This document shows positions 4,289 through 39,582 of a stretch of DNA of 64,000 nt, piece after piece. The notes beneath the pieces were generated by a model. That model did no database searches. It was not told where the DNA came from and saw only the letters and a program-made list of their open reading frames with translations. Source of the DNA: Nitrosophilus labii (GTDB taxonomy: Bacteria; Campylobacterota; Campylobacteria; Campylobacterales; Nitratiruptoraceae); contig NZ_AP022826.1 in assembly GCF_014466985.1 (NCBI RefSeq), positions 248,001 to 312,000 of the forward strand, read 5' to 3'. The first letter of the stretch is position 1; each line of letters begins with the position of its first letter. A program made the translations under genes and the position numbers.

Positions 4289-5563
4289 GTGAAAAAAGTA
4301 GAGCTGTTAAGTCCTGCCGGAAATCTAGAAAAACTAAAAATCGCCATCAATTATGGGGCCGATGCCGTTTACGGAGGTGTAAGCCATTTTAGTTTGAGAA
4401 TTAGAAGCGGAAAAGAGTTTACGATCGAGAGTTTTAAAGAAGGGATCGATTACGCTCACGCAAGAGGAAAGAAGGTTTATTGTACAATAAATGGATTTCC
4501 TTTCAATTCGCAAATAAAGCTTTTTAGAAAACATGTTGAGAAGATGGCTGAGCTGGAGCCTGATGCTTTCATCGTCAGTACCCCGGGCGTTATCAATCTT
4601 TGTAAAGAGATTGCTCCTCATATAGACTTGCACCTTTCCACTCAGGCAAACGTTATGAACTATTTAGACGCTCAGGTATATTTTGAACTTGGAGTAAAAA
4701 GAATCATAGTAGCAAGAGAAATTAGCCTAAAAGATGTTCAGATAATAAAAGAGAAATTGCCTGAACTTGAGCTAGAGGTTTTTGTTCACGGAAGTATGTG
4801 TTTTGCTTATAGCGGAAGATGTCTTATATCGACTATGCAAAGCGGAAGGGTACCAAATAGAGGTAGCTGCGCAAATGACTGTAGGTTTCCTTATACTCTT
4901 TATGCGGAAAATCCAGAGACCGGAACACTTTTTAAACTAGAAGAGGTGGCAGGTGAGGGAACATATATCATGAATGCAAAAGATCTAAATCTAGCAAGCC
5001 ACATAAAAGAGATTTTAGATAGCAAAGCAGTAGATAGCTTAAAAATCGAAGGAAGAACAAAAAGTCCTTACTATACCGCGATAACAACTAAAGTTTATAG
5101 ATGTGCGATAGATGATTATTATAATGGCAGATTTTATCCTGAAATCTATCAAAAAGAGTTGCATACTACTAAACATAGAGGTTTTACCGATGCATATCTT
5201 ATTCAAAGACCTTATGAGAAGGCAGATACACAAAAGTTAGACAGCTCTATCAGTGAAGGAACTCATCAAGTAACGGCTGAAGTTACGGAAGATGGGCTTT
5301 ACTTTTTGACAAAAGATAAGATGTGTAAAGGTGATGAGGTAGAGATAGTTTCACCTAATGGGGAGTTGACGGAGTGTGAAAACGAGATAGGAAAAGTTTA
5401 CAAAAAAGAGGATTCTTGGTTTGTGAAATTTTACAAAATCAAGACCGAGTCCGGTAAAGAGATGGAGTGTATTCACAGCGGAAATCAAAATAGAGTAAAG
5501 CTTCCATGTAAAATGGAGCCTTTCTCGTTTTTTAGGAGAAAAATTGGAAAAAGTAACGATTAA
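4289..5563 (+). CDS. U32 peptidase family protein (TrhP/YegQ-like tRNA hydroxylation factor family)
   Basis: About 424 residues from the GTG at 4289, which has GAGGA 5 bases upstream and gives the usual family start, VKKVELLSPAGN. An in-frame ATG at 4268 adds 7 residues but has a poorer ribosome site. Family signatures are present: YGADAVYGG, and the U32 block EVFVHGSMC followed by SGRC and NRGSCANDCR with its conserved cysteines. Relatives (TrhP) act in prephenate-dependent 5-hydroxyuridine formation in tRNA; others are called collagenase-like proteases. The tRNA role is the better-supported family function but is inferred here. Confidence 0.9.
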   Translation: MKKVELLSPAGNLEKLKIAINYGADAVYGGVSHFSLRIRSGKEFTIESFKEGIDYAHARGKKVYCTINGFPFNSQIKLFRKHVEKMAELEPDAFIVSTPGVINLCKEIAPHIDLHLSTQANVMNYLDAQVYFELGVKRIIVAREISLKDVQIIKEKLPELELEVFVHGSMCFAYSGRCLISTMQSGRVPNRGSCANDCRFPYTLYAENPETGTLFKLEEVAGEGTYIMNAKDLNLASHIKEILDSKAVDSLKIEGRTKSPYYTAITTKVYRCAIDDYYNGRFYPEIYQKELHTTKHRGFTDAYLIQRPYEKADTQKLDSSISEGTHQVTAEVTEDGLYFLTKDKMCKGDEVEIVSPNGELTECENEIGKVYKKEDSWFVKFYKIKTESGKEMECIHSGNQNRVKLPCKMEPFSFFRRKIGKSND

Positions 5564-5840
5564 AGAGATAGTTCCAATCTGGTGGGCATGGCAGTGGAGG
5601 GCTATGGTTGCTACATTAGTAGGTACTTTGGTATTTAGTTTTTTGATAGGTTTGATAGGAGGTATCTTAGGGTTTTCTAAAGAGAGTATATATATACTTA
5701 CAAATCTGGTTTCTTTAGCGGTAGCCATATATGCCTCTTTATACTTTTTTGCGTATATTTTCAATATGAGGTTTAAAAAGTATAAACTCTGTATAATGGA
5801 AGATAGTAATCATTACGCTAAAAAGGCGGCTTTGATTTAA
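5544..5840 (+). CDS. Small two-helix membrane protein, function unknown
   Basis: 98 residues starting at a TTG with AGGAGA 4 bases upstream; the start overlaps the end of the U32 gene by 20 bases. Two hydrophobic segments, about residues 22-44 and 48-73, flank a short loop, and there is a basic/polar C-terminal tail. Aromatic-rich N-terminus (IWWAWQWR). No family recognised. The tight overlap implies co-translation with the U32 gene, and the pair lies just upstream of purE. Confidence 0.75.
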   Translation: MEKVTIKEIVPIWWAWQWRAMVATLVGTLVFSFLIGLIGGILGFSKESIYILTNLVSLAVAIYASLYFFAYIFNMRFKKYKLCIMEDSNHYAKKAALI

Positions 5841-5894
5841 AGATAGATAGATTTTTCCAAAAATTTTTAATCAAACCAAACGTAAAGGAGTATT

Positions 5895-8579: not shown

Positions 8580-8712
8580 AGGAGTGAAGCAGTGAAAGGG
8601 TGTTGGTGTTAGTGTTAAGAATTAAGTGTTAAGAGTTAGGATTATCTAATATATCAATTCCCAATACACTAATATACCAATGCACCAATGTCTAATATCC
8701 AATGTCCAATAA
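8559..8712. repeat. Degenerate 7/8-base repeat running from the glyQ 3' end to the next gene
   Basis: Units on the first side include GTGAGTG, GGGAGTG, AGGAGTGA, AGCAGTGA, GTGTTAA, GAATTAA, GTGTTAA, GAGTTAG. Units on the far side include CCAATAC, ACTAATA, TACCAATG, CACCAATG, CCAATGT, CCAATAA. The strand bias flips in the middle (G/T-rich to C/A-rich), as in the other loci, but here 7- and 8-base steps are mixed. No gene in this spacer. Confidence 0.7.
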
Positions 8713-9526: not shown

Positions 9527-10246
9527 ATGAAACAGTTTATAGAACAGCTTGTAGAACTATCCAAAATAGATAAAGATATAGATGCTTTTGAACCAAAAAT
9601 TGCAGAGATAAGAGCAAGGTTAGAAAAAGTAGAAAAAGAAAAGAGAACTATAGAAACTGCAATAAAACAGTTAAACGATGAGATTCAAGAGTGTGAACTC
9701 AAAAAGAGAAAGAATGAGCTTCATCTGCAGGAACTTGCTGAAAAGCTAGAGGAACTCTCTAAAAAAAGTGCTAATGTTAAAACAGAAAAAGAGGCAAAAG
9801 CTATTGGGCTTGAAGAGGAAATTGCAAAAGAGCAGATAAGCTTTGCAAACGAAGAGATTGCAAGACTTGAAAATCTTTGTGAAACAAAGCTTGAAGAGAA
9901 AGAGGCTTTAGAAAATCAGTTAATAGAGATTGAAGAGAAGCTTGAAAAGATAAAAGAGTCTGTAGAGGTTGAACTAAAAGAGATAGAAGATGAAAGAACA
10001 AAAGTTTTTGAAAAAAAACAAGAACTTGTTTCAAAAATCCCTCAAAAAATTTTGGCTTTTTATGAAAAGATAAGAAGATGGGCCGGAAACAGCGCCGTTG
10101 TCCCGGTAAAAAAGCAGGCTTGCATGGGATGCTTTATGAAAATAAACGACAAAACATTCTCTAAAGTTATTAAAGCCGAAGAGATTGTAACCTGTCCTCA
10201 CTGCGGCAGAATACTCTATCTTGAAAAAGAGGAAGAAACGGTATAG
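9527..10246 (+). CDS. flgZ: Coiled-coil zinc-ribbon protein of the FlgZ/HP0958 family
   Basis: 239 residues: a long charged coiled coil (about 10-170, Glu/Lys-rich heptads) followed by a C4 zinc ribbon with CMGC and CPHC. This is the architecture of Helicobacter HP0958 (FlgZ), which protects the flagellar sigma factor RpoN from turnover and binds flaA mRNA, and of chlamydial CdsZ. The neighbours are also those of HP0958 (glyQ, Nif3-like, waaA), which supports orthology. Whether it controls flagella in this organism is inferred. Confidence 0.85.
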   Translation: MKQFIEQLVELSKIDKDIDAFEPKIAEIRARLEKVEKEKRTIETAIKQLNDEIQECELKKRKNELHLQELAEKLEELSKKSANVKTEKEAKAIGLEEEIAKEQISFANEEIARLENLCETKLEEKEALENQLIEIEEKLEKIKESVEVELKEIEDERTKVFEKKQELVSKIPQKILAFYEKIRRWAGNSAVVPVKKQACMGCFMKINDKTFSKVIKAEEIVTCPHCGRILYLEKEEETV

Positions 10247-10310
10247 GAATTAGTAATCAGGAATTAGGAATTAGAAAAATCCTAATTCCCAATTCCTAGT
10301 TCCAAATTCC
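10246..10310. repeat. 7-base-period inverted degenerate repeat (nine units, no indel)
   Basis: Starting at the last base of the flgZ stop: GGAATTA, GTAATCA, GGAATTA, GGAATTA, GAAAAAT, CCTAATT, CCCAATT, CCTAGTT, CCAAATT. The period is exactly 7 through both arms and the central turn. It fills almost the whole spacer up to the waaA ribosome site. Confidence 0.9.
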
Positions 10311-10321
10311 AAAGAGGTTTA

Positions 10322-11476
10322 ATGTTTCCATTTATCTACACAGTTTTATTAACTTTTTTTTATATAGTTTTAATTCCCTTTTTATTAATAATTTCTTTCA
10401 AAAACAAGTATAAAAGATCGATTCCATCGAGATTTTTTCTTTTTAAAAATCCTTCTTTCAAAGATAAAACCATCCATTTTCATTCATGCAGTCTTGGAGA
10501 AACCCTATCTTTAAAGCCTTTGATAGAAAGTTTTGACAAAGTTAATCTCTCAGTTATAACCGATACCGGATTCGAGGCAGCTAGAAAGTATTCAAATGCG
10601 GATGTGAGATTTTTGCCTTTTGAGATATTTTTGTGGTTTTGGCTAAAACCAGGTAGAGTTCTTGTAGTAACGGAAGCGGAACTATGGTACCTTCTTTTTT
10701 ATCTATCTAAAAAAAGAGGGGGCAAAACCTTTTTGATAAACGCGAGAATCAGCGATAGAAGCTACAAAAGCTATCTGAGACTTAGGTGGTTTTATAAAAA
10801 GATTTTTGAAAATATAGATTTTGTATTTGCTCAGACAGAAACGGATAGAGAGAGACTAAAAACTCTTGGCGCTAAAAATGTAGAGGTGGCCGGAAATATA
10901 AAACTGGCAGTAAAACCTGTAATTACCAAAAGTTATGAAAAACCGAAAAAAAGAGTGATTGTTGCGGCAAGCACTCATGAACCTGAAGAGGAGATCATTT
11001 TTACTGCCTGGCTTAAAAATAACAAAGATTCGGTTCTGGTTATTGTTCCAAGACATCCAGAAAGATTTGACGAAGTAGATGAGCTTCTTTCATCTAGATG
11101 CAAGGCTGAGAGGCTTAGTTATCATAGATTTAGTCAAAAGAGCAGTTTTGATGCGGATGTGGTTTTAGTAGATAAAATGGGAGAATTGATAAATATTTAT
11201 ACCATTAGCGATCTAGTTATTCTTGGCGGAAGTTTTGTCAACGTGGGAGGTCATAACCCTTTAGAGCCGGCATTTTTCAATAAACCTATAATCAGCGGGA
11301 AAAATATCTATAACCAAAAAGAGTCATATTCATATGTTGGCGGTATAGAACTTATAGAAGCGGATGAACTTGAAGAGGTTTTTGAAAAAAAAGATTTTAA
11401 GCCTACAAAAATCGTTGCAAAAGCGGATATAAAAAAGATTTTAAAAAAGATAAAAGAGGCTTATGATGTGGTATGA
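10322..11476 (+). CDS. waaA: 3-deoxy-D-manno-octulosonic acid (Kdo) transferase
   Basis: Adds Kdo to lipid A precursor at the cytoplasmic face of the inner membrane. 384 residues: N-terminal membrane anchor (about 5-27), then a GT-B fold. Family features include FHSCSLGE, VTEAELW, AASTHEPEEE and the late GGSFVNVGGHNPLEPA that binds CMP-Kdo. GAGG lies 6 bases before the ATG. The end overlaps the DUF167 gene by 14 bases. Confidence 0.94.
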   Translation: MFPFIYTVLLTFFYIVLIPFLLIISFKNKYKRSIPSRFFLFKNPSFKDKTIHFHSCSLGETLSLKPLIESFDKVNLSVITDTGFEAARKYSNADVRFLPFEIFLWFWLKPGRVLVVTEAELWYLLFYLSKKRGGKTFLINARISDRSYKSYLRLRWFYKKIFENIDFVFAQTETDRERLKTLGAKNVEVAGNIKLAVKPVITKSYEKPKKRVIVAASTHEPEEEIIFTAWLKNNKDSVLVIVPRHPERFDEVDELLSSRCKAERLSYHRFSQKSSFDADVVLVDKMGELINIYTISDLVILGGSFVNVGGHNPLEPAFFNKPIISGKNIYNQKESYSYVGGIELIEADELEEVFEKKDFKPTKIVAKADIKKILKKIKEAYDVV

Positions 11477-16656: not shown

Positions 16657-17421
16657 TTACTCCTTCAGCTTAAAAAGTGTGCTTCCGCTTCCGCTTAGAA
16701 ACCATCTATCTTTAAAAGAGTCTAGTTTAGGACAAAGATCTATTGCGCTTTTATATAAATCATTTGCTTTTAGAGGCGAAATTTTAGTCAAAATCTTATA
16801 TGATGGCAAGTTTTTAAGCTCATTTGAAAGCTCTATCTCGAAAATTTTCATAAATTTTTCTCTATAGTTTTTATAAACTCTGGCTGTATCGCACCTCTCA
16901 TCTATAAACTTTAGCTCAATATCTGGAACCTCTTCTTCAAATTTTTCTATAATCTCTCCGACGCCGCTAACGTTTGCACTCTCATAATCGTATATGAAAA
17001 AGGGGATATCAGCTCCTATTGTAGCTCCTATTTCTGAAAGTCGTTTTATGGAAAGTCTAAGGTCGATAACATCGTTGCAAAGTTTCATAAAAGCGGCCGC
17101 ATCGCTACTTCCGCCGCCAAGCCCTCCTCCTTGAGGTATTCTTTTTTTAACCACTACTTTATGATAATAGAAAAACTCTATGATAGCCGGATTTTGCGTA
17201 TATTCGTTAAGTTTAATAAAAGCTTTGTATATGAGATTTTCCTCTCTTTTTATCCCCTCGCATCCCTCTATAGTAAATTTTTCAAAGTTTCCCGGGATAA
17301 ACTCTATCACATCATACAGCTCTTTTATCTTGACAAATCTTGAGATGAGTTCGTGATAGTCGCCTCTGGTACCAACTATTTTTAAAAAGATATTTACTTT
17401 TGCATGAGCTTTTGTTTTCAT
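16657..17421 (-). CDS. ispE: 4-diphosphocytidyl-2-C-methyl-D-erythritol kinase
   Basis: GHMP kinase of the MEP isoprenoid pathway. The start at 17421 gives the usual [15 protein letters not shown]-terminus, with GGAG 10 bases upstream; in-frame ATGs at 17430 and 17439 overlap truB and are less likely. About 254 residues with the ATP motif [15 protein letters not shown]. Overlaps or abuts truB and smpB, so they are co-transcribed. Confidence 0.93.
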
Positions 17422-17426
17422 TTTAT

Positions 17427-18350
17427 TCATTCTCCACAATCTATATTTAACCCAATATGATTTAAAAGATACTTCACCTTTTTATCTTTAATCTCTATTA
17501 TTGTGAAAAAATTATCGAAAACTAGATGGAAGACTCCTTCCTCTTTGATTTTTAGATCTTTTAGAAATATCTTTTTGCCGTTTTTTATCTCATCTTTTGA
17601 CAGGCAGGTAAAGTTCTCTTTAGTATTTAGATATTTTACCGGATTTAAAGCTTTTTCATTTTCATATACAAACTCTCCTTCTCTGAGTCTCTCAAGACTG
17701 CTTAGGGTACCGACAGTACCAAGTTTTTTAGCTATTAGCTCTCCTAAACTTCTTATATAAGTCCCTTCGCTTACTTTTGCTTTAAAGGTTATAAAAGGGT
17801 GTGAATAGTTTATAAGTTCGATATCATAAACAAAAGATGTAACTTCTGGAAGTTTTACATCCTTTTCTTTTCTGGCAAGTTCGTAAGATCTAATACCTCC
17901 AACTTTTTTTGCGCTATATTTAGGCGGAGTATATCTTATCTCTCCTTTGAAAGACTCTACTACATCTTTTACTTTTTTGTAGTTTATAGGCAAAATATTT
18001 TTAATATCATCTATATCTTCTATATCTAATGTTTCGCTTTTAGCTCCAAGCCACAAGGTGGCTTCATAAACTTTTGGTGTTTTTTTTAAAAATCTAAAAA
18101 GTTTTGTGTATTCTCCAAAAGCCACTATCAAAACGCCTTTGGCGAAAGGATCTAATGTTCCAGAATATCCGGCCTTTTTGATTTTATATTTTTTTTTAAT
18201 TTGAGAAAGAAATCTATTTGAGCCAATAAAAGGGGGTTTGTATGTTACAAAAAGAGAGGTGCTAGAAGGTAGAAGGTAGAAGGTTGAAGGAATAATTTCA
18301 TTTTTCAATTTTTTACTTTCTATCTTTAACCTTCTTCCTTCTTCCTTCAT
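17427..18350 (-). CDS. truB: tRNA pseudouridine-55 synthase with a repeat-encoded N-terminus
   Basis: Makes pseudouridine 55 in the T-loop of tRNAs. The catalytic block GYSGTLDPFAKGVL (Asp in GTLDP) is intact and the body matches campylobacterial TruB from LFVTYKPPFIGSN onward. The roughly 28 residues before that (rich in Lys, Glu, Ser and Leu) have no counterpart I know of and are translated from a 7-base tandem repeat. No ATG, GTG or TTG lies at the usual family start, so translation must begin inside the repeat (ATG 18350 with AAGG upstream, or the internal TTG at codon 15). Confidence 0.93.
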   Translation of the reverse strand: MKEEGRRLKIESKKLKNEIIPSTFYLLPSSTSLFVTYKPPFIGSNRFLSQIKKKYKIKKAGYSGTLDPFAKGVLIVAFGEYTKLFRFLKKTPKVYEATLWLGAKSETLDIEDIDDIKNILPINYKKVKDVVESFKGEIRYTPPKYSAKKVGGIRSYELARKEKDVKLPEVTSFVYDIELINYSHPFITFKAKVSEGTYIRSLGELIAKKLGTVGTLSSLERLREGEFVYENEKALNPVKYLNTKENFTCLSKDEIKNGKKIFLKDLKIKEEGVFHLVFDNFFTIIEIKDKKVKYLLNHIGLNIDCGE

Positions 18351-18362
18351 CCTTCAACCTTT
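18265..18362. repeat. 7-base-period inverted degenerate repeat (14 units, no indel) overlapping the truB start
   Basis: On the + strand: GAAGGTA, GAAGGTA, GAAGGTT, GAAGGAA, TAATTTC, ATTTTTC, AATTTTT, TACTTTC, TATCTTT, AACCTTC, TTCCTTC, TTCCTTC, ATCCTTC, AACCTTT. 98 bases in unbroken 7-base phase. The G-rich arm and the C-rich arm are inverted relative to each other. The repeat supplies the truB start codon and AAGG motifs in front of it. Confidence 0.92.
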
Positions 18363-18364
18363 AC

Positions 18365-20419
18365 TTATATTTTTTCAACAAAAGAAGCCAAAATATCTCT
18401 TTTTTGTCCGCTAAAATTTATAGAGAGTTTAAACTCGCGTCCCACTTTGCTAACACCCGTTACCCTGCCTATGCCAAAGATTTTATGTTTGACCAAATCG
18501 CCTTTTTTAAAAGATGTGGATTTTTCCAAAGAGAGGCTTCCTTCACAAAGCCCCGCCTCTTTTAAAAATCGACTTTTAATCAGTTCGGTTCTTCTGCCTT
18601 TATAAAACCTGCTGTGAACGTGGCTTAAAACAAGTTCCTCTTGTGCTCTTGTTATAGCAACGTAGCCCAAGCGTCTCTCTTCTTCTATATCGCTACCATC
18701 ACCGGTTAGGGGAAAGAAACCCTCTTCAAGTCCTATTACGAAAAGGTATCTAAACTCTAGTCCTTTACTTGCATGTACGCTCATAATAGAGATAGATTCA
18801 CCATCTATCTGATCCTGATCGCTTTGTAGTGAAAGTTCGTTTAAAAAATCGTCTAGTGTACTTTCGGGATTTTGTTTTATGAAATCTCTAAAAAGTCCGT
18901 AGAATTCGTCTATATTTAAAACTCTTTCCATGCCGTCTGGCATACTTTCATAATATCTTCTTAGTCCAAAAATATTTTCAATCTCATCTACAAATTTGTA
19001 TAAAGATTCCTGTGATAAAGATTTTAACAGACTCAAGCCTTCTATGAACTCTTTTATAGTTTTATAGTTTTTTTTACCTATTAAAGAGATAAGTTCTTTT
19101 TCATCGGCTTCTGTTAAATAACTTATGATAGGTTTTCTGTTTTCGTATGCGGCTTTTTGGAGTTTGTCAAATGTAATTTTTCCTATGCCTCTTTTTGGTC
19201 TATTGATAACTCTTTTTAAAGAAAAGTCGTCATAAGGGTTTGCAACAATTCTAAGATAACTTATAAGATCTTTTATCTCAGCTCTTTCGTAAAACCTCAT
19301 AGCGCCCACGAGTTTATAAGGTATTTTAGCTTTATTAAGTCCCTCTTCAAGTGAGCGGCTAAGAGCGTTGATTCTAAATAAAACGGCAATCTCTTTAGGA
19401 TCGGCACCTGCATTTAAAAGTTCTTTTATCTTCTTGGCTATTTTTGCCGACTCTTCAATTTCATCTTTCGACTCGTATATCTCAATAGGCTTCCCTTTTC
19501 CAATAACAGCTTCCAATTTTTTGCCTAAGCGGTTTCTATTATGCTCTATCAAAGAGTTGGCTGCTTTTAGTATCTCTTGAGTAGATCTATAGTTTTTTTC
19601 GAGTTTAACTACTTTTGTGTTTGGAAAATGGTTAGGAAATTCCAAAATATTTTTTATATTTGCGCCTCTCCATCCGTAGATACTCTGATCGTCATCACCT
19701 ACTACGCATATATTGTTATGTGTGTAGCAGAGTTTTTTCACAAGCAGATACTGAAGTTCGTTAGTGTCTTGGTATTCGTCTATCATTATGTATTGATATC
19801 TTTGACTGATTTGAGTGCATAAATCATCATTTTTGTCCAAAATTTTGTAAGTTAAAACTAAAAGATCATCAAAGTCTACCAGATTGTTCTCTTTTAGATA
19901 GTTTTGATATTTTTGATAGATTGCAGCAATCTTTTTAAAATTTGGAAGCTGAGCGCTTTCAAGTGCAATTTCTGGCTCTATCAATGAGTTTTTGTATCTT
20001 GAAATTTCGCTTGCAATTAAAGGGATTGGGATGTCCGGTTCAAAAGATTTTAGGATTCTCTTTTTATCATCTGTATCTATTATTACGAAAGTGTTGCTTC
20101 TTCCTAATTCTTGTATATAAAATTTTAAAAACAGAAGGCCAAATTTGTGAAAAGTGCAAAGAAGGGGAGGATAAACGCTATCTTCTATCAATGAAAGAGC
20201 CCTCTCTCTCATCTCTTTTGCTGCTTTGTTGGTAAATGTTAGAGTTAAAGTATTGGCAGGATCAATTCCAAGTTTTAATAGATAGGCTAGCCTAGAAGTT
20301 ATAGTTTTGGTTTTGCCGCTTCCTGCTCCGGCTAAAATTAGAAGAGGACCATCTATGGTCTCTACCGCTTCTTTTTGAGATTCGTTTAAATGGTTGAAAA
20401 TTTTATCCATATTGTTCAT
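18365..20419 (-). CDS. uvrD: UvrD/PcrA/Rep-type superfamily 1 DNA helicase
   Basis: 684 residues. Motifs in order: AGAGSGKTKT (Walker A, about residue 32), TFTNKAAKEM, DEYQDTNELQ (Walker B), VVGDDDQSIYGWRGA, and late VMSVHASKGLEF and VAITRAQEEL. 3'-5' helicase for nucleotide-excision and mismatch repair or replication restart. The C-terminus carries a short Tudor-like segment (GDLVKHKIFGIGRV) typical of PcrA. The start is ATG 20419 or the one three codons later. Confidence 0.95.
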   Translation of the reverse strand: MNNMDKIFNHLNESQKEAVETIDGPLLILAGAGSGKTKTITSRLAYLLKLGIDPANTLTLTFTNKAAKEMRERALSLIEDSVYPPLLCTFHKFGLLFLKFYIQELGRSNTFVIIDTDDKKRILKSFEPDIPIPLIASEISRYKNSLIEPEIALESAQLPNFKKIAAIYQKYQNYLKENNLVDFDDLLVLTYKILDKNDDLCTQISQRYQYIMIDEYQDTNELQYLLVKKLCYTHNNICVVGDDDQSIYGWRGANIKNILEFPNHFPNTKVVKLEKNYRSTQEILKAANSLIEHNRNRLGKKLEAVIGKGKPIEIYESKDEIEESAKIAKKIKELLNAGADPKEIAVLFRINALSRSLEEGLNKAKIPYKLVGAMRFYERAEIKDLISYLRIVANPYDDFSLKRVINRPKRGIGKITFDKLQKAAYENRKPIISYLTEADEKELISLIGKKNYKTIKEFIEGLSLLKSLSQESLYKFVDEIENIFGLRRYYESMPDGMERVLNIDEFYGLFRDFIKQNPESTLDDFLNELSLQSDQDQIDGESISIMSVHASKGLEFRYLFVIGLEEGFFPLTGDGSDIEEERRLGYVAITRAQEELVLSHVHSRFYKGRRTELIKSRFLKEAGLCEGSLSLEKSTSFKKGDLVKHKIFGIGRVTGVSKVGREFKLSINFSGQKRDILASFVEKI

Positions 20420-28122: not shown

Positions 28123-28213
28123 TAGTCATTAGTCAGTAGTCGTTAGCTAACAGATAATCTAAAGATTAACGACTGATGGCTAAAGACTAACGACTAAAAA
28201 CTAACGACTAAAG
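28123..28213. repeat. 7-base-period inverted degenerate repeat (13 units, no indel)
   Basis: Directly after the secF stop: TAGTCAT, TAGTCAG, TAGTCGT, TAGCTAA, CAGATAA, TCTAAAG, ATTAACG, ACTGATG, GCTAAAG, ACTAACG, ACTAAAA, ACTAACG, ACTAAAG. The TAGTC-type arm and the GACTA-type arm are inverted. Ends exactly where the leuS Shine-Dalgarno GGAG begins. Confidence 0.92.
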
Positions 28214-28217
28214 GGAG

Positions 28218-30674
28218 ATGATGGGTTACGAACCTAAAAGTATAGAAAAAAAGTGGCAAGAGTTTTGGAAAAAAGATAGATATTACGAACCAAAAAATGA
28301 CTATACAAAGGAAAAAAGATATATTTTGAGTATGTTTCCTTATCCAAGCGGACGTATCCACATGGGGCATGTTAGAAACTACGCTATAGGTGATGCTATT
28401 GCTAGATACTACAGAAAAATCGGGAAAAACGTTCTTCATCCTATCGGCTGGGATGCGTTTGGGATGCCTGCAGAGAATGCGGCTATAAAAAAAGGTGTAC
28501 ACCCTAAAAAATGGACTTATGAAAATATAGACTATATGAGAAAGGAACTAGACTCTTTAGGTTTTAGTTTTTCTCAAGAGAGGGAGTTTGCCACTTGCGA
28601 TGAGATATATACTAAGTTTGAACAAGAATTTACCGTTGATATGTTTGAAAAAGGGCTTCTGTATAGAAGCAGTGCTACCGTAAACTGGTGTCCTCACGAT
28701 AAAACCGTTTTGGCAAACGAGCAGGTGATAGAGGGTAGATGTTGGAGATGTGATACGGAAGTAGTCCAAAAAGAGATGGACCAATACTTTTTAAAGATCA
28801 CTGATTATGCGGAGGAGCTTTTAAGAGATCTTGAAAAACTGGAGGGTAAATGGCCAAAACAGGTCATTGCTATGCAAAGAAACTGGATAGGTAGAAGCGA
28901 AGGGTTAGAGTTTGAATTAAAGCTTGACGATGATAGCAAAAAGAGGTTAGGTGAAAAGTTTGAGGGTTTTAAAGTTTTTACTACAAGAGCCGATACTATC
29001 TATGGAGTTACCTATACGGCTTTGGCGCCAGAGCATGAGATAGTAAAATATCTTGTAAATAATACTCTTTTAGATAGCGAGTCGATCCAAAAGATTAAAA
29101 AGATGCAAAATACTCCGCCAAAACTTAGAGCCCAGGCAGAAAAAGAGGGGTTATTTCTAAATCTTTACGTAATCCATCCGCTAACAAAAGAGAAGATTCC
29201 GGTATGGGTGGCAAATTTTGTTTTGACTGAGTATGGAAGCGGCGCGGTGATGGCCGTACCTGCCCATGATGAGAGAGATTTTGAGTTTGCTAAAAAATAC
29301 AATCTTTCTATCAGATATGTTATAAAGCCTAAAGATGGCAAAATCGATAGCGATAGAGCTGTTGTAGAGCCTGGAGTCCTCTTTGATAGCGAAGAGTTTA
29401 GTGGTTTAGAGAGCGAAAAAGCTAAAAAAGCGATAATTGACTATTTCGAAAAAGAGGGGTTAGGAAAAAAAACTATAAATTATAAACTTAAAGATTGGTT
29501 GGTTAGTAGACAAAGATACTGGGGGACGCCAATTCCTCTTGTTAAGTGTCCAAAATGTGGACTTGTGGCAGAGAAAAAAGAGAATCTCCCCGTAACTTTA
29601 CCGGAAGATGTGCAGATTACCGGTGAAGGAAATCCTTTAGAGCTACATCCAACCTGGAAATATACAAAATGTCCAAATTGTGGCGAGGATGCTATAAGAG
29701 AGACGGATACTTTAGATACTTTTGTGGAGTCTAGTTGGTACTTTCTAAGATTTACCACTCAAAAAGAGTATTGGGATAAGCTGCCTTTCAAAAAAGAGGA
29801 TACCGACTACTGGATGAGCGTTGATCAGTATATCGGCGGTATAGAGCATGCTATATTGCATCTTTTATATTCTAGGTTTTTTACAAAAGCTTTAAGAGAT
29901 TTAGGATACGTAGATATTGACGAGCCTTTTGAGAGACTGCTTACCCAGGGTATGGTTTTAAAAGATGGAGCTAAGATGAGTAAGTCTAAAGGCAACGTGG
30001 TAGATCCGGACTCGATTGTGGAAAAATTCGGTGCCGATACCGCAAGACTCTTTATCCTTTTTGCGGCCCCTCCTTCAAAAGAGCTTGAGTGGAACGACAG
30101 TGCGGTTGAAGGGGCTTATAGATTTATAAAGAGATTTTTTGATAGATCTTTGGATGTAAAACCTTGCGAAAATTTACCTGCTATAGATCACTCAAAACTC
30201 TCAAAAGAGGAGAAACTTGCTAGAAAGAAAGTTTACGAGGCTTTGAAAAAATCGAAAGATGTTTATGAAAAAAACTACACTTTCAACACTCTAATAGCCG
30301 CTTCTATGGAAGCTTTAAATGCTTTAAACGCACAAAAAAATGAAGAGGTATGGAGCGAAGGATACTGGATACTATCAAATATATTAGAGCCTATTATTCC
30401 TCACGTATGCTGGGAGATATCTGATAGACTTTTTAATAGAAACAATTTTGAAAATATCGAGATAAAAGAGGAAGTTTTCCAAGAAGATAGCGTAACTTTG
30501 GCGGTAACTATAAACGGGAAAAGAAGAGCCGAGATAGAAGTGCCCGTAAATGCTTCCAAAGAGGAGATTTTACGAACAGCTAAAGAGAAAGCTAAAAAGT
30601 GGATAGAGGATAAAGAGATAGTTAAAGAGATTGTGGTTCCAAATAGACTTGTAAATATAGTGGTAAAAGGGTAG
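28218..30674 (+). CDS. leuS: Leucyl-tRNA synthetase
   Basis: 818 residues. [19 protein letters not shown] holds the HIGH-type motif; [12 protein letters not shown] is the KMSKS loop; the CP1 editing domain (about 220-420) and a Cys4 zinc-like insertion (CPKCG, CPNCG) are visible. Two ATGs are adjacent (28218, 28221); AGGGAG touches the first, so the second has the better spacing. Confidence 0.97.
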
Positions 30675-39507: not shown

Positions 39508-39526
39508 TTTTTTCCTTTTAGTATTT

Positions 39527-39582
39527 AGTGATCAGTAACGGGTAATCGATAAACTCATCACTCGTCACTTATTACTCAACTT
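39527..39582. repeat. 7-base-period inverted degenerate repeat between ccoI and ccoS
   Basis: AGTGATC, AGTAACG, GGTAATC, GATAAAC, then TCATCAC, TCGTCAC, TTATTAC, TCAACTT: eight units, inverted arms, no indel. The last codons and stop of ccoI (KLSNK) lie in the right arm. Confidence 0.85.

Follow-up and report, generated by a model that had tools for sequence, protein, structure and literature searches.

The truB gene and its start region in Nitrosophilus labii

Nitrosophilus labii is a deep-sea vent bacterium. The 64,000-nucleotide stretch of its genome that we analyzed (the window, to which the coordinates below refer) contains on its minus strand a gene for a 307-residue protein (17427–18350) that was assigned as truB, encoding tRNA pseudouridine(55) synthase, by matches to TIGR00431 (162.7 bits, cut-off 151.45) and PF01509 (160.8 bits, cut-off 27.3). 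Upstream and in the same direction is a UvrD/PcrA-type helicase gene (uvrD, 18365–20419, minus strand), whose TAA stop codon (18365–18367) is 14 nt ahead of the truB ATG. Downstream, ispE (16657–17439, minus strand) overlaps the 3' end of truB by 13 nt.

The truB start region is made up of 14 consecutive 7-base units in a single phase (18263–18360). On the plus strand, units 1–7 are TAGAAGG (three times), TTGAAGG, AATAATT, TCATTTT and TCAATTT, and units 8–14 are TTTACTT, TCTATCT, TTAACCT, TCTTCCT (twice), TCATCCT and TCAACCT. The self-match of this array at period 7 was 0.71, compared with 0.46 or less at periods that are not multiples of 7, and all six matches to GAAGGNNGAAGG in the whole window fell within 18265–18355, where dinucleotide shuffles gave an expectation of 0.08 for the window. 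The array was absent from the TRF list at score 50 and had no match in Rfam. The original prediction had described an unbroken array of 14 heptamers; the number of units was correct, but the units change strand midway and are degenerate, with 11 different sequences among the 14. The array comprises two tandem arrays facing opposite ways, which make it palindromic overall. Its first arm (18263–18290, plus strand, TAGAAGG three times and TTGAAGG) reads CCTTCAA followed by three CCTTCTA in the truB sense and encodes PSTFYLLPS. The A/T-rich, degenerate centre (18291–18329) keeps the 7-base phase, and the second arm (about 18330–18362, minus strand) reads AAAGG, TTGAAGG, ATGAAGG, AAGAAGG and AAGAAGG in the truB sense. 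Read in that sense, the uvrD stop is therefore followed by GTAAAGGTTGAAGGATGAAGGAAGAAGGAAGAAGG, a degenerate A-rich stretch, ATTATTCCTTCAACCTTCTACCTTCTACCTTCTAGCACCTCT and then CTT TTT GTA, the codons for the LFV motif at the start of the conserved TruB core.

The truB frame is open from an ATG within an array unit (18348–18350, minus strand), with LFV beginning at codon 33. This ATG is the only truB start preceded by a Shine-Dalgarno (SD)-like sequence, AAGG (18358–18361, minus strand), located 7 nt upstream. Between the ATG and LFV there is no further in-frame ATG or GTG and only one TTG (codon 15, within the array and lacking an SD), and from codon 15 to LFV there is no ATG, GTG, TTG or CTG codon and no good SD. 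These observations agreed with the original prediction that the family-typical start before LFVxYKP is absent, in that no canonical, SD-preceded start is present there in frame, and that the array itself provides the ATG and the SD. The array was also expected to contribute about 28 codons, and this is the number derived from it among the 32 that precede LFV. The resulting N-terminal extension (18255–18350, minus strand; MKEEGRRLKIESKKLKNEIIPSTFYLLPSSTS) is predicted to be disordered, as the AlphaFold model of TruB had pLDDT values below 50 for residues 1–27 and its fold begins with a strand at residue 33. One predicted tryptic peptide of the extension is NEIIPSTFYLLPSSTSLFVTYKPPFIGSNR.

RNA folding predicted a hairpin over the truB start that pairs the SD and ATG region (-29.9 kcal/mol, z -2.9 relative to shuffles). 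For a longer leader, the predicted folding energy weakened from -40.7 kcal/mol (37 °C) to -20.9 kcal/mol (55 °C), as that of any hairpin would. The palindromy had been overlooked in the original prediction, as had the membership of the array in a genome-wide family and the several other genes affected.

The uvrD-truB junction in other Campylobacterota

To determine where TruB proteins normally begin, we compared 106 campylobacterotal truB loci, using as criterion an ATG, GTG or TTG no more than 10 codons from the LFV motif. Such a start was present at 101 of the 106 loci, and the alignment agreed with the expectation that relatives begin at LFVxYKP. Typically, the truB ATG overlaps or touches the uvrD stop codon. 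The five exceptions were N. labii (G000), G003, N. alvini (G005), a Hydrogenimonas MAG (L126) and a distant MAG (L148). Palindromic or heptamer-type arrays were found in three of these and an octamer array in one, L148, whose TruB extension consists of four CTCAGTCA octamers after a TTG with GGAG; L126 had no array.

The extension had been predicted to be limited to the N. labii lineage, which the comparison did not support. The closest relative, G002, whose truB is ~92% identical, has no array at the gene and starts GTG ATT GAA, whereas G003 and N. alvini have their own array-type insertions at the uvrD-truB junction, as L148 has its own array ahead of TruB. In G004, truB starts ATG AAA AAT AGA. 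Judged from these sequences, the truB arrays of G000, G003 and G005 appear to have been gained separately, but so few genomes do not allow gain to be fully distinguished from loss.

A dispersed family of palindromic heptamer arrays

We searched the N. labii genome by pattern and sampled it by stretches. A three-unit GAAGG pattern (up to 2 mismatches) gave 94 matches (49 + 45), compared with 13 (7 + 6) for the reversed control, and these 94 matches formed about 28 clusters, one of which was the truB array. In clusters with both arms, the GAAGG arm mostly came first and the CCTTC arm second. The truB array is thus one member of a dispersed family of the form [GAAGGNN]n - A/T-rich centre - [CCTTCNN]n. 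A strict palindromic pattern had 16 matches in N. labii, 5 in G003 and 8 in N. alvini, and it was present in 6 of 397 Campylobacterota genomes; the control gave 0. The array-rich genomes were G000, G002, G003 and G005 (26 to 76 matches), and GAAGG matches were at control level in G001, G004 and 16 Nitratiruptor-type genomes (genus g3). A single genus is split in this respect, with G001 and G004 lacking GAAGG arrays and G000, G002 and G003 being rich in them.

Members of the family are also found in divergent, convergent and 3' positions and in rRNA spacers. Their units and centres vary by locus, such that only the period and the core are common to all, and the arms pair imperfectly at the NN positions. 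Some arrays begin with GGTAGAAGG, one among several NN variants, and by eye there was no consensus beyond GAAGG. In a period scan of nine 20-kb chromosome stretches (180 kb), period 7 was not more common than periods 8, 9 or 11 at the threshold used, and we consequently make no claim about density beyond the GAAGG class.

Arrays at the starts of other genes

The truB gene had been referred to as essential-type, which is a loose term as truB is dispensable in E. coli; murD and tsaC are better examples. In N. labii an array supplies the start codon of tsaC (a TTG directly after the carB stop), of murD (an ATG 4 nt past the mraY TAG, with the TAG itself in the first unit) and of a LolD-like ABC gene after tsf, in each case in frame with the conserved core. 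In hldE and waaF, the array lies just past the start ATG and is likewise in frame with the conserved core. Both arms are present at truB, tsaC, murD and the LolD-like gene, and mainly the CCTTC-type arm at hldE and waaF. The predicted peptides of the array-bearing proteins are VLQPSTFNLQPDK (TsaC), IEDLFLYPSSDSIPSISLFGYGK (MurD), TDPSTFNLQPSTFLLK (LolD-like protein), MISSSFNLHPSTYIPK (HldE) and FFYSPSTFNLQPSTSLHQVEK (WaaF). The open reading frame with a TTG start at the 1675493 array (L078) was not counted among these genes, as it likely has a native ATG further in.

The CCTTCAA arm translates as PSTFNLQ. A second array, FYSPSTFNLQPSTS, lies inside waaF and is in frame. At L063 (waaF, 4890–5891) the array-derived, in-frame insert in heptosyltransferase II is PSTFNLQPSTS, and the waaF orthologues of G003 and G005 have inserts at this internal site and at a second internal site. 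A tblastn search of plasmids with PSTFNLQ returned only weak matches, 16 of 17 with no annotated gene beneath them.

Filled and empty sites were distributed differently for each gene. G000, G002 and G003 have an array at the tsaC site, whereas the gene has native starts in G004 (MKIVDP) and G001 (MKILDP). The murD site is filled in G000 and G002, separately in G005, and is empty in G001, G003 and G004. The waaF site is filled in G000, G002, G003 and G005. At the G003 tsf-lolD junction there is a period-8 palindrome that is open in frame from a GTG.

Reading frame is kept at orthologous arrays

Arrays were classed as coding or untranslated from N. labii alone and then set against their orthologues, with one genome per species. 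Coding arrays had lengths of 96/93/90 nt (tsaC), 94/91 nt (murD) and 51/51/51/72 nt (waaF), giving differences of -3, -6, -3 and +21, all multiples of 3. By comparison, lengths of untranslated arrays were 62/60 nt (rpsD-rpoA), 74/73/67 nt (RND 3' end) and 109/112 nt (moeA), and their differences (-2, -1, -7 and +3) were mostly not multiples of 3. The probability of all four nonzero coding differences being divisible by three by chance is about 0.01, a value that comes from only four differences.

Where the tsaC and murD arrays of G000 and G002 differ by substitutions, no preference for third positions was visible by eye. Together, these comparisons suggest that it is the frame, not the sequence, that appears to be kept in the tsaC and murD arrays. 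The array sequence is not visibly conserved, as expected of a disordered tail. The hldE and waaF arrays are very likely translated, since each is preceded by a good ATG and followed by the conserved core, which makes translation hard to avoid. The avoidance of stop codons by the NN dinucleotides of translated GAAGG units was suggestive, but the numbers were too small and the units are related, and we did not use it.

Proposed origin of the array-borne start codons

Based on the recurrence of arrays at other genes and in other genomes, and on the frame being kept at orthologous arrays, we consider it probable that stop/start junctions tolerate dispersed palindromic arrays, which then come to serve as in-frame sites of initiation and to encode disordered tails. 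In some Nitrosophilus genomes, palindromic heptamer arrays would form time and again at sites that tolerate them, and at the uvrD-truB junction, where stop and start overlap or nearly touch in relatives, an array would have replaced the native start region. The unit NTGAAGG could meet the needs of initiation, with AAGG acting as the SD and NTG available at the next unit boundary, and the 7-base period would set AAGG 7 nt before NTG, near the usual SD spacing. Because the unit carries both elements at this distance, an array at a stop/start junction could restore initiation once its frame fits. Ribosomes that finish uvrD, or that bind AAGG, would then start at the ATG at 18350 and read through the array, adding a disordered tail of 32 residues to an otherwise normal TruB.

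Translation of truB from this ATG is thus what we infer, and it is likely coupled to that of uvrD because the uvrD stop is only 14 nt from the truB start. The tail presumably has no function of its own. A point against this reading is that the hairpin over the SD and ATG would slow initiation unless the ribosome leaving uvrD opens it; alternatively, growth near 53 °C would weaken the hairpin and ease initiation. Another concern is raised by Di Nocera et al. 2013 (PMC3733652), who argue for other bacteria that, where a REP overlaps the 5' end of an ORF, the annotated start is in many cases wrong. At truB, however, there is no downstream canonical start to which the annotation could be moved.

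An alternative view is that the array is an untranslated leader, serving only as an RNA hairpin or spacer, with TruB beginning at a non-canonical codon near LFV. Most REPs at annotated ORF 5' ends in Pseudomonas putida, Citrobacter koseri and Stenotrophomonas are believed to be non-coding (PMC3733652), and the truB hairpin is better than its shuffles. We nevertheless find this view quite improbable, given the absence of ATG, GTG, TTG or CTG codons and of a good SD from codon 15 to LFV, the frame kept among the tsaC, murD and waaF orthologues, and the hldE and waaF arrays that follow a good ATG and so are very likely translated. The hairpin might instead be the selected feature and control truB, either by coupling translation between the cistrons or as an RNA thermometer, with the tail as a by-product. 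This is compatible with the array-borne start that we favour, and its z value, its predicted weakening from 37 °C to 55 °C and the arrays found directly past stop codons in operons are consistent with it. It seems to us rather unlikely, as the element is missing at truB in the closest relative and in most of the family, the arms pair imperfectly at NN positions, and arrays are also found in the divergent, convergent, 3' and rRNA-spacer positions described above. That the heptamers are a phase-variation device, in which slippage by one unit would shift the truB frame and switch the gene off, could be suspected from a period that is not a multiple of 3, from the location of the truB start in the second unit of the array, and from the N. 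alvini waaF array differing by exactly 3 units. The 11 different sequences in 14 units would discourage slippage, though, the length differences found keep the frame, and a housekeeping gene is an unlikely target for a switch, all of which makes this proposal barely credible.

The array could also be a copy from a REP or RPE (Rickettsia palindromic element) family moved by a transposase. Elements of these types lie in frame in ORFs, truB included, in Rickettsia conorii, S. maltophilia, E. litoralis and S. alaskensis (PMC3733652), and the junctions at truB, tsaC and murD are conserved apart from the arrays that interrupt them. Against this, G000, G002, G003 and G005 had no match to Y1_Tnp (PF01797) in searches in which control genomes were positive, centres and units vary by locus with only period and core shared, and the G003 tsf-lolD junction has a period-8 version. 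We had also considered mobile copying for three identical arrays in N. alvini and rejected it, as these belong to the three copies of the rRNA operon. No target duplication was seen by eye at arrays. Copying by a transposase is, in our judgement, very improbable, and we favour, with low confidence, local generation by slippage and strand switching. We further speculate, tentatively, that an active, non-transposase process in some Nitrosophilus builds period-7 (occasionally 8) palindromic arrays anew at junctions, and that these arrays act as portable initiation modules, through the well-spaced SD and NTG of the unit, and repeatedly create new N-termini for housekeeping proteins.

Comparison with known repeats

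The N. labii arrays resemble the Rickettsia palindromic elements (RPE-1, RPE-4 and RPE-6) in being short, dispersed, tolerated palindromes that occur in frame within housekeeping proteins, such as TruB, or at their N-terminus, and they share with RPEs the defining property of an in-frame palindrome in conserved ORFs. They differ in that RPEs are copies of defined sequence families, whereas the arrays share just a 7-base period and the GAAGG core, and in that the start codon and SD come from the repeat itself in N. labii. GTAG/CGTC REPs are also palindromes found at gene ends, where they give stop codons (as for the mraY TAG here), or in the 5' ends of ORFs, and they affect truB in several unrelated bacteria (PMC3733652). 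Unlike these REPs, the N. labii arrays are tandem heptamers instead of one stem, with no shared 20–40 bp consensus seen by eye, and, unlike RAYT-associated REPs, they occur in genomes (G000, G002, G003 and G005) with no Y1 transposase.

Heptamers near gene starts are known from the TAACTGA repeats of Beggiatoaceae, Cyanobacteria and Bacteroidetes (MacGregor 2015, PMC4679880). These direct repeats are enriched just upstream of start codons, and some overlap ORFs; they consist of a single invariant heptamer that has little resemblance to an SD and contains stops in every forward frame, are almost never inverted (169 direct sets and one indirect), and overlap the expected ribosome-binding site, with no supply of start codons reported (PMC4679880). 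In contrast, the N. labii arrays have a GAAGG/CCTTC core and inverted arms, and so do not share the single orientation of TAACTGA. The cyanobacterial STRR heptanucleotide repeats are likewise intergenic tandem heptamers, but they have fixed sequences and are not palindromic, and they are not known to serve as start codons of operon genes. A literature search, which excluded most subscription papers, returned no description of palindromic heptamer arrays that supply both SD and start codon. In-frame palindromic elements and heptamers ahead of starts were known already, and what differs here is the type of repeat.

Operon genes normally have conserved start codons. Within a single genome, one type of repeat appears here to have assumed the initiation of several conserved housekeeping genes, and the empty sites in sister genomes serve as controls, such that the birth of new N-termini can be traced stepwise. 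This raises the question of what makes locus-specific, palindromic period-7 DNA in some genomes of one genus. For annotators, array-borne starts should be regarded as real candidates and not as errors.

Other period-7 arrays

Four further period-7 stretches, mostly palindromic and with different cores, are found in the window. Two of these (8609–8672 and 39517–39573) are degenerate. A third (10234–10334) is a palindromic array with the core AATTAGG...CCTAATT that spans the end of one ORF (9527–10246) and the start region of the next (10322–11476). The fourth (28145–28229, CTAAAGA/CTAACGA) lies directly before an ORF of 818 residues (28218) that resembles an aminoacyl-tRNA synthetase, and its last unit gives AAAGGGAG ahead of the ATG. 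A tRNA gene in an rRNA operon spacer of N. alvini has a palindromic period-7 array on either side (L207, about 2168–2400), and the first of these two arrays occurs in all three rRNA operons.
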